From: Enorma massiliensis phI
GTDB taxonomy: Bacteria > Actinomycetota > Coriobacteriia > Coriobacteriales > Coriobacteriaceae
Length of the DNA: 64,000 nt
Reading direction: 5' to 3'
NCBI RefSeq assembly: GCF_000311845.1
Contig: NZ_HE978574.1
Coordinates: 1,339,346-1,403,345 of the forward strand
Position 1 is the stretch's first letter. Each line of letters begins with the position of its first letter. Under the pieces are notes generated by a model that ran no database searches, had not been told where the DNA came from, and saw only the letters and a list, made by a program, of their open reading frames with translations. The translations under genes were made by a program, and so were the position numbers. Of the stretch, positions 28,307 through 56,829 are shown in pieces.

Positions 28307-28537
28307 CTAGGGAGGCGCTGATTATTGGGCGTCGGGGCCATCCGATCAAGCGAGGTTTCAACTTTTGGGCACTTCCTGACGCGTCGGGCGGGTACAGGCG
28401 AGCGAGCGGAAAGAGAAAGCGCAGCTCAGACGGCCGGCGCTCTCCCGGATGCGGCGTTGCTACTCGGGCACTCTGCCTCAAAGTGCCCAAAAGTTGAAAT
28501 CCCGATCGCCCCGGTGATGCAATCAACGTCTCTCTAG
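28307..28537. repeat. inverted-repeat intergenic element, copy 1 (subfamily A)
   Basis: Inner arms TTTCAACTTTTGGGCACTT (28356-28374) and its exact complement (28481-28499), 19 bp, enclose 106 bases. Outer imperfect arms CTAGGGAGGCGCTGATT (28307-28323) and the complement of CTAGAGAGACGTTGATT (28521-28537) make a nested structure. The interior matches the copy at 34896-35139 in reverse orientation at roughly four bases in five. No ORF of note inside and no target duplication seen. Confidence 0.85.
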
Positions 28538-34895: not shown

Positions 34896-35139
34896 CTATG
34901 GAGGCGCTGATTCCATCGTCAAGAGCGATCGGAGTTTCAGCTTTTGGGCACTCTGGAGCAGAGGTCCCGAGTAGCCACGCCGCCCCCGAGAGAACGACGG
35001 CCGCCTGGGCTGCGCCTTTGCCTCCCCCTCTTTCGCCCGTACCCGCCCGCCGCGTCAGGAAGTGCCTAAAAGTTGAAATCGCGATGGGGCGGATGGCTCC
35101 GGCGTCGAGAAGCACTTCAAACAGCCAGCATCTCCCTAG
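34896..35139. repeat. inverted-repeat intergenic element, copy 2 (subfamily A, reversed)
   Basis: Inner arms TTTCAGCTTTTGGGCACT (34935-34952) and AGTGCCTAAAAGTTGAAA (35061-35078), 18 bp with two mismatches; inner element 144 bp, exactly the length of copy 1. The interior and both flanks match the reverse complement of copy 1 (shared phrases such as CCTGACGCG, GGGCGGGTAC, GCTACTCGGG, GCCATCCG, CTAGGGAG). The outer end CTAG at 35136-35139 supplies the TAG stop codon of the XRE gene. Confidence 0.85.
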
Positions 35140-36465: not shown

Positions 36466-37075
36466 GCTTGCCTCCAAATCAATTACGCAGCTACAAAACG
36501 CTGCCAAACCGCATGGCATATTCTGAGGAATCGCAGAGGCGATTTCATTAGCTCCGAGCTAAGAGGGGCGCCATTTCTGCTTTACAACGCCGCGCACTCC
36601 AATCTGAACCCGCGCTGCACTCCGCGCAGGAGAAGTCGGGAAAACCGATGCAGGTGCCGACCTGCCAAAATCCTCTCGGATCGAGGCCGCACCGCAGCCA
36701 TAGGACAAGGTTTCAACTTTTGGGCACTTTAGATGGTCCTGGCAAAGTATGGGCACTCAGAGCAAGCCTTCTACCTGGGCTTTTCGTGAGAGCCAACCCC
36801 TTGATACTTTGAGATACGTCCTGCAAGTGCCCAAAAGTTGAAAATCGATATATCAAACCCCGGAAGATCGATTAATCGAGCCCCGGATACAAAGCACCTC
36901 GTCGCAAAGACGAGCCAGCAACGGTTGTTTCCGGAGCATACGCACGAAACAAGCACTGAGTTCAAATCAATTGAAGCGCTTTAATTTGCCGAAGACAAGA
37001 ATTCTGCCGTTTACCGAGCTATATCTTGCTAGAATTGCGGATGTAGGGTAAGTCACCAGTCACAAGGAGAGACAC
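36466..37075. other. 610-base intergenic region between the Ltp and adhE genes
   Basis: No gene is seen. It contains inverted-repeat element copy 3 (36711-36843). Near its end, before adhE, TAGAAT (37030-37035) is a candidate -10, but a -35 at proper distance is not clear; AAGGAGAGACAC is the adhE ribosome binding site. Divergent promoters for both genes must lie here. Confidence 0.5.
36711..36843. repeat. inverted-repeat intergenic element, copy 3 (subfamily B)
   Basis: Arms TTTCAACTTTTGGGCACTT (36711-36729) and the exact complement (36825-36843), 19 bp, around 95 bases. The arms are identical to copy 1; the interior is different from subfamily A but shares blocks with the reverse complement of copy 4 (AAAGTATCA, GGTA..A.GGCTTGC). 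The outer arms seen in copies 1 and 2 are not recognisable here. Confidence 0.82.
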
Positions 37076-56687: not shown

Positions 56688-56829
56688 TTTCAACTTTTGG
56701 GCACTTCAGCGGCATACGAGAAAGTATCACTCAGAAGACCGAAAGAAAGCAGCAGGTAAATGGCTTGCCTTTTCGCACTTTCGCGCTCGATACTCAGCAA
56801 CCCCGCAATCAAGTGCCCAAAAGTTGAAA
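56688..56829. repeat. inverted-repeat intergenic element, copy 4 (subfamily B, reversed)
   Basis: Arms TTTCAACTTTTGGGCACTT (56688-56706) and exact complement (56811-56829), 19 bp, identical to the arms of copies 1 and 3. The 104-base interior resembles the reverse complement of copy 3 (AAAGTATCA, CAGGTAxAxGGCTTGC). Sits between converging genes. Apart from this, the tandem repeat and the terminator, the 437-base gap shows nothing. Confidence 0.82.

Follow-up and report, generated by a model that had tools for sequence, protein, structure and literature searches.

The window, a stretch of 64,000 nucleotides from the genome of Enorma massiliensis phI, contains four copies of an element bounded by inverted arms (Table 1). 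All four copies are intergenic, and their eight arm sites sit at the coordinates that had been read from the sequence alone. Such sites are not a product of chance, as 0 are expected in the window (100 dinucleotide shuffles). The lengths of 144, 144, 133 and 142 bp and the exactness of the arms in three copies had also been correctly described. The interiors of copies 1 and 2 align in opposite orientation, and both copies have the outer arms (CTAGGGAG...) that had been noticed around them. The common interior proposed for copies 3 and 4 does not stand, since these two interiors are not alignable and only have in common short motifs at fixed spacing, namely AGTAT, ACCTG...TTT and TACT, which are also carried by copies 1 and 2. 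Between positions 37019 and 39745, the window also holds two long overlapping ORFs on opposite strands (908 aa on the minus and 881 aa on the plus strand), the first of which has no Pfam match.

Table 1. Elements of the window with their parts (positions within the window), and arm families of the whole genome.
Feature	Position	Strand	Sequence or remark
Copy 1, left outer inverted repeat of carrier MITE	28307–28323	+	CTAGGGAGGCGCTGATT
Copy 1, element	28356–28499	-	144-bp class, arm family A; core on minus strand
Copy 1, arm A	28356–28374	+	exact
Copy 1, center motif	28415–28429	-	CTGAGCTGCGCTTTC on minus strand
Copy 1, core half-site	28460–28467	+	CTACTCGG (GAGTAG on minus strand)
Copy 1, arm A, inverted	28481–28499	-	exact
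Copy 1, right outer inverted repeat of carrier MITE	28521–28537	-	
Copy 2, left outer inverted repeat	34896–34912	+	CTATGGAGGCGCTGATT
Copy 2, element	34935–35078	+	144-bp class; 2+1 mismatches in its family-A arms
Copy 2, arms	34935–34953 / 35060–35078		
Copy 2, right outer inverted repeat	35126–35139	-	CAGCATCTCCCTAG; shifted outward by about 20 bp
Copy 3, element	36711–36843	+	133-bp class, arm family A; exact arms
Copy 3, arms	36711–36729 / 36825–36843		
Copy 3, left core site	36746–36749	+	AGTA
Copy 3, center motif	36771–36784	+	CTACCTGGGCTTTT
Copy 3, right core site	36805–36809	+	TACTT
Copy 4, element	56688–56829	-	142 bp; exact family-A arms; flanked by malQ-like and rsmB genes in convergent orientation
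Copy 4, arms	56688–56706 / 56811–56829		
Copy 4, center motif	56745–56759	-	TTACCTGCTGCTTTC on minus strand
Arm family A			TTTCAACTTTTGGGCACTT; about 46 copies in this genome
Arm family B			AAGTTCGAGGCTCGAGTCGGAAGGTTTTT; 7 copies in this genome
Arm family C			CAAAACTCCCGCCAAAGGATCGAATTTT; 6 copies in this genome
Arm family D			ACGGTTATCAACGGTTATTTT; 2 copies in this genome
Arm family E			AAAACTTTCGGTTTTACACGGTTATA; 1 copy in this genome; near arms of other genera

The idea of a dispersed intergenic family is borne out by the whole genome (2.28 Mb, 99.9% complete), in which a search with the arm gave 79 sites with up to two mismatches. Nearly all of them pair into elements of either 133 (131–134) or 144 (142–145) bp, about 46 in number; exceptions are rare, and one element is truncated (C1:626804) while another runs into an assembly gap (C1:1335547). 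When all arm families are taken together, about 60 elements are found between the genes. The 133-bp class, represented by copy 3 and by the diverged copy 4 of 142 bp, has no outer repeat, and its interiors are unalignable except for short motifs that keep their positions, with AGTAG about 35 bp from the left end, CTACCTGCGGTTTT in the middle, and CTACT about 35 bp from the right end. Pairwise identity in this class is 0.29 in the variable spacer columns, which is the level obtained by shuffling columns, and 0.92 in the arms. This is the older class, with spacers at chance level while the arms, the motifs, and the spacing have been kept. The 144-bp class (copies 1 and 2) has alignable interiors, its arms being conserved at 0.94–0.97 versus 0.78–0.84 for the inner spacers, and it is younger, the product of a recent wave of modules carried within a separate MITE. 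For these two copies the earlier label "MITE-like" was appropriate, as they lie inside a unit of about 230 bp with outer repeats (CTAGGGAAACGCTGATT...AATCAGCGTTTCCCTAG) that belong to a MITE family of their own. The extra 11 bp of this class are located between the left AGTAG and the center and correspond to about one helical turn. The outer repeat defines an independent MITE family, which often starts at the stop codon of a gene and has different cargo at other places; CTAG is present at both ends of the 144-bp-class carrier and is ambiguous as a target-site duplication. The gene upstream often ends with a TAG stop codon that coincides with the first bases of the MITE terminal repeat TAGGGAAACGCTGATT (L317, L323, L325, L326, and L329), and the interiors of these MITEs vary, the core-arm module being carried in this genome and in that of the relative G005.

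A feature missed in the sequence-only reading is a common core with the structure AGTAG – 20 bp – CTACCTGCGGTTTT – 20 bp – CTACT. A model built only from the sequences of the 133-bp class (R1) had tens of matches in the other genomes of this family, all of them through the interior only. Nearly every one of these cores is again framed by an inverted repeat of about 16–28 bp, with a different sequence. The core, conserved across relatives in which the arms vary, is the deeper signal of the two. Its consensus, taken from 55 aligned cores of relatives, is C-R-AGTAG-(A/C)C--GAAAA---GCAA--CCTTCTACCTGCGGTTTTGTT---GTCTACTCGG, and 58 of the 75 cores of relatives have a spacing of exactly 20/20. The distribution of the elements is order-wide: a core-only model (R2) has matches in 135 of 221 sampled Coriobacteriales genomes, a figure that counts genomes (R2 counts per genome are lower bounds) and in which lone weak matches may be due to chance unless they fall in the window's family or in the one labelled f5. 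Within the window's family the fraction rises to 56/57, and the complete member G007 has no core in the R1 and R2 searches. A core variant is also observed in which both outer AGTAGACC sites are symmetrically replaced by ACCACACC and the center motif is kept (L356, L358, L359, and L361; G058, G039, G054, and G038). The center motif was also considered as the site of a general regulator; this was rejected, as in 800 kb of the close relative G001 the full-context motif occurs only inside an element.

The core model also detected additional cores without arm A in the genome of the window. The inverted repeats at those examined have scores of 13–30, compared with a maximum of 11 at 150 random places. 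At least five arm families are found on one core in this genome, and the arms of the relatives form 16 clusters separable at below 60% identity. Regarding their sequence, the inner ends of the arms tend towards GCGGTTTT, like the center motif. The arms are only one module of the elements, and an interchangeable one. Hybrid elements with two different arms are conserved in two species (L124 and L350 in G012; L127 and L353 in G022). Tandem pairs of elements about 147–165 bp apart are found in G117 (L366), G017 (L369), and G013 (L370); the pair of G013 and G017 is composed of two different arm families and has been kept at the same place.

Concerning their location, for 37 of 43 elements of this genome the nearest gene end is a 3′ end (p=1.6e-6), and the elements are over-represented in convergent gaps (p=0.02), gene positions for both statistics having been obtained with a home-made gene caller. 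The neighboring genes are heterogeneous, with no recurrent protein family. Most of the orthologous sites checked lack the element; for instance, none is present at the malQ–rsmB site of copy 4 in 19 relatives. At a site between Bax-like and flavodoxin genes, the close relative G001 has the same family-A copy, G005 carries an unrelated element with other arms and spacers, and G002–G004 have none. Persistence at orthologous places was found for L045 and L066 in G001 and for L048 in G014. According to these comparisons, the copies are lineage-specific and yet able to persist in orthologous places. The intergenic regions of G001 are too diverged or rearranged to give exact empty sites, and no copies were found in viral, phage, and plasmid collections. 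In four comparisons of orthologous copies, there were 0 changes in 118 arm bases versus 18 in 408 bases inside, a result slightly favored by the location of the arms as exact substrings. As judged from these alignments, the arms are under constraint.

It had been suggested that the elements could be structured RNAs or could extrude a long stem. A non-coding RNA or a single-stranded DNA hairpin with the arms as its stem would agree with the almost perfect pairing of the two arms of every element around a fixed axis (z about 12), and also with folds that, owing to the arms, are in most single strands far more stable than those of shuffled sequences. However, the compensatory changes for which a search had been proposed are not seen, the left and right arms of one element being no more alike than those of different elements: within- and between-element identities are equal in families A and B and in the family of G002 (p about 0.3–0.55). 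Only family C has some concert within elements (p=0.0015), which counts against an independent reading of its arms. The arm mismatches (42 G-T vs. 45 A-C) are symmetric, with no strand-specific wobble. In addition, RNAalifold gives no structure for the core (energy 0.0), the spacers have neither hairpins nor covariation beyond weak lineage effects at one column, Rfam has no match for the elements, and hybrids with non-matching arms are conserved (L124/L127). On this evidence, a folded RNA or DNA strand is very improbable. The lack of co-variation and the symmetry of the mismatches suggest that the arms act as two independent, sequence-specific, double-stranded binding sites, and in the aligned copies they behave as such sites for a putative family-specific protein rather than as a hairpin. 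Site-specific inversion deserves as little credit as the hairpin. Invertible promoter switches (invertons) also have inverted repeats of 19–29 bp around a short asymmetric segment and several repeat families per genome, and here the families have distinct arms, as though each relied on a recombinase of its own. Nonetheless, G023 has elements and only two tyrosine recombinases (presumably XerC and XerD), and G011, G014, and G117 have no serine recombinase match, for which reason both enzyme types were rejected as mobilizers in these genomes. No promoter-like hexamers are seen in the first three elements of the window, and three orthologous pairs are all in the same orientation. An attC-like reading of the motif TTTCAAC...GTTGAAA was dropped when other arm families were seen. 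The attC sites of integrons conserve their ends, vary in the middle, and are arrayed; the elements described here resemble them as palindromic elements of the 130-bp class with a structural blueprint, but they vary at the ends, conserve the middle, and are scattered.

Comparison with known dispersed repeats leads to two further explanations. The elements might be plain MITEs of several unrelated insertion sequences, in which the arms would be the terminal repeats by happenstance. Certainly, they are short, multi-copy, non-coding, and dispersed, with terminal inverted repeats, the 144-bp class is carried by a real MITE, and bacterial MITEs such as RUP, the Correia elements, and RU-1 are likewise intergenic and non-autonomous sequences of 100–250 bp with inverted ends. 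However, unrelated insertion sequences are not expected to share a core at fixed spacing, and here interchangeable arm families are combined with one order-wide core. Moreover, no enriched flanking direct repeat, that is, no target-site duplication, was found in the 133-bp class, and in the nearly complete genome of the window neither arm A nor the outer repeat flanks a parent or autonomous element. An origin as plain MITEs is improbable. The other comparison, already raised by the mention of BIME/REP-like sites, is with REPINs, which are doublets of REP sequences mobilized by RAYT (TnpA-REP) transposases and whose populations have inverted conserved ends, diverse spacers, several types per genome, and long persistence (PMC3116915). 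The elements follow this same population logic, being dispersed between genes and with spacers of fixed length; GTAG is found within the core, and RAYT genes are present in the genome. On the contrary, the three RAYT loci of this genome and 17 loci of relatives are flanked by other repeats (GGGGACGTGTTCC, TGAGACAGTT...), and G013, G017, and G042, with many elements, have no match to Y1_Tnp (PF01797), so RAYT was rejected as the mobilizer. Unlike REPINs, the elements have a conserved asymmetric core, single arms that are not palindromic, AGTAG about 14 bp inside of the arm, a spacer without hairpin or compensatory changes, and no signal of arm pairing. The RAYT and recombinase results make both RAYT-moved REPINs and recombinase-driven invertons unlikely, and the REPIN explanation is quite improbable. 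In terms of population behavior the closest known elements are REPINs, and in terms of size and ends they are MITEs; the defining features of both that were tested are absent.

The explanation that best accommodates these observations, with a probability of about 0.5, is that they are non-autonomous, protein-read dispersed elements of the Coriobacteriales, with a fixed geometry and putative arm- and core-specific proteins, which would be mobilized in trans. Each element would be a docking site in which the two inverted arms of 19–29 bp are bound by a family-specific DNA-binding protein, and the core by a conserved factor or domain placed on the three AGTAG-type sites and the center motif. The arm and core proteins might form one synaptic or wrapped nucleoprotein complex able to mobilize or copy the element in trans, in the way that RAYTs act on REPINs; the several arm families of a genome would then spread, persist, and be lost, with the core remaining. 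In this sense, length classes one helical turn apart and a constant spacing of unconserved spacers support a nucleoprotein site of fixed geometry; the several families, the turnover of the arms, and the lineage-specific sites make mobilization in trans the most likely purpose; and the same blueprint across the order argues for a class of DNA elements, so far undescribed, that are read by proteins and probably mobile. It is important to note that no trans-acting protein for the elements was found, which counts against this explanation, and that old copies persisting under selection would fit a host function as well. The main rival is precisely that the elements are host-domesticated architectural or regulatory sites on the 3′ sides of genes, with anchoring, insulating, or transcript-end functions, kept by DNA-binding proteins of the host with a specificity that drifts from one lineage to another. 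Arms and motifs are under strict purifying selection in old copies that have been inherited vertically; this, together with the fixed helical spacing and the preference for gene 3′ ends and convergent gaps, is in its favor. Nevertheless, a single genome has several arm families, arms are replaced wholesale between relatives, the sites are lineage-specific, the complete genome G007 has no detected core, and the functions of the neighbors are heterogeneous, all of which makes domestication unlikely, although less so than the alternatives weighed above.

No published description of these elements was found among open-licence papers. We tentatively propose that they could represent a new kind of dispersed element, a two-key module in which an exchangeable pair of arms (the "address") and a universal core are read together by putative proteins. 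The arm families of each genome would be parallel "channels" on one conserved machine, and either selfish replicators or a host code for the organization of the chromosome. Almost all members of a family to which common gut bacteria belong carry the elements, with up to dozens per genome. They separate a fast-changing specificity part from a part that is constant across the order, two parts usually fused in small repeats; this gives the search for two cognate proteins a clear definition and provides a natural experiment on how DNA-binding specificity co-evolves. As selfish elements, they would join REPINs as a second type of persistent replicator; as domesticated ones, they would form an unknown layer of chromosome organization at gene 3′ ends.

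In the family, the RAYT (Y1_Tnp) genes have short REP-like repeats of their own on their flanks (GGGGACGTGTTCC, TGAGACAGTT...AACTGTCTCA; L218–L237, for instance L223, L231, and L234). Some of these repeats are arranged as inverted doublets of about 101–103 bp, with a REPIN-like pair at L239:849–951, and they probably constitute an undescribed REPIN system of the Coriobacteriales. Upstream of several RAYT genes adjoining secG (L224, L228, L233, and L234) there is a CTACCTGCGGAAA-like motif that resembles the center of the elements.
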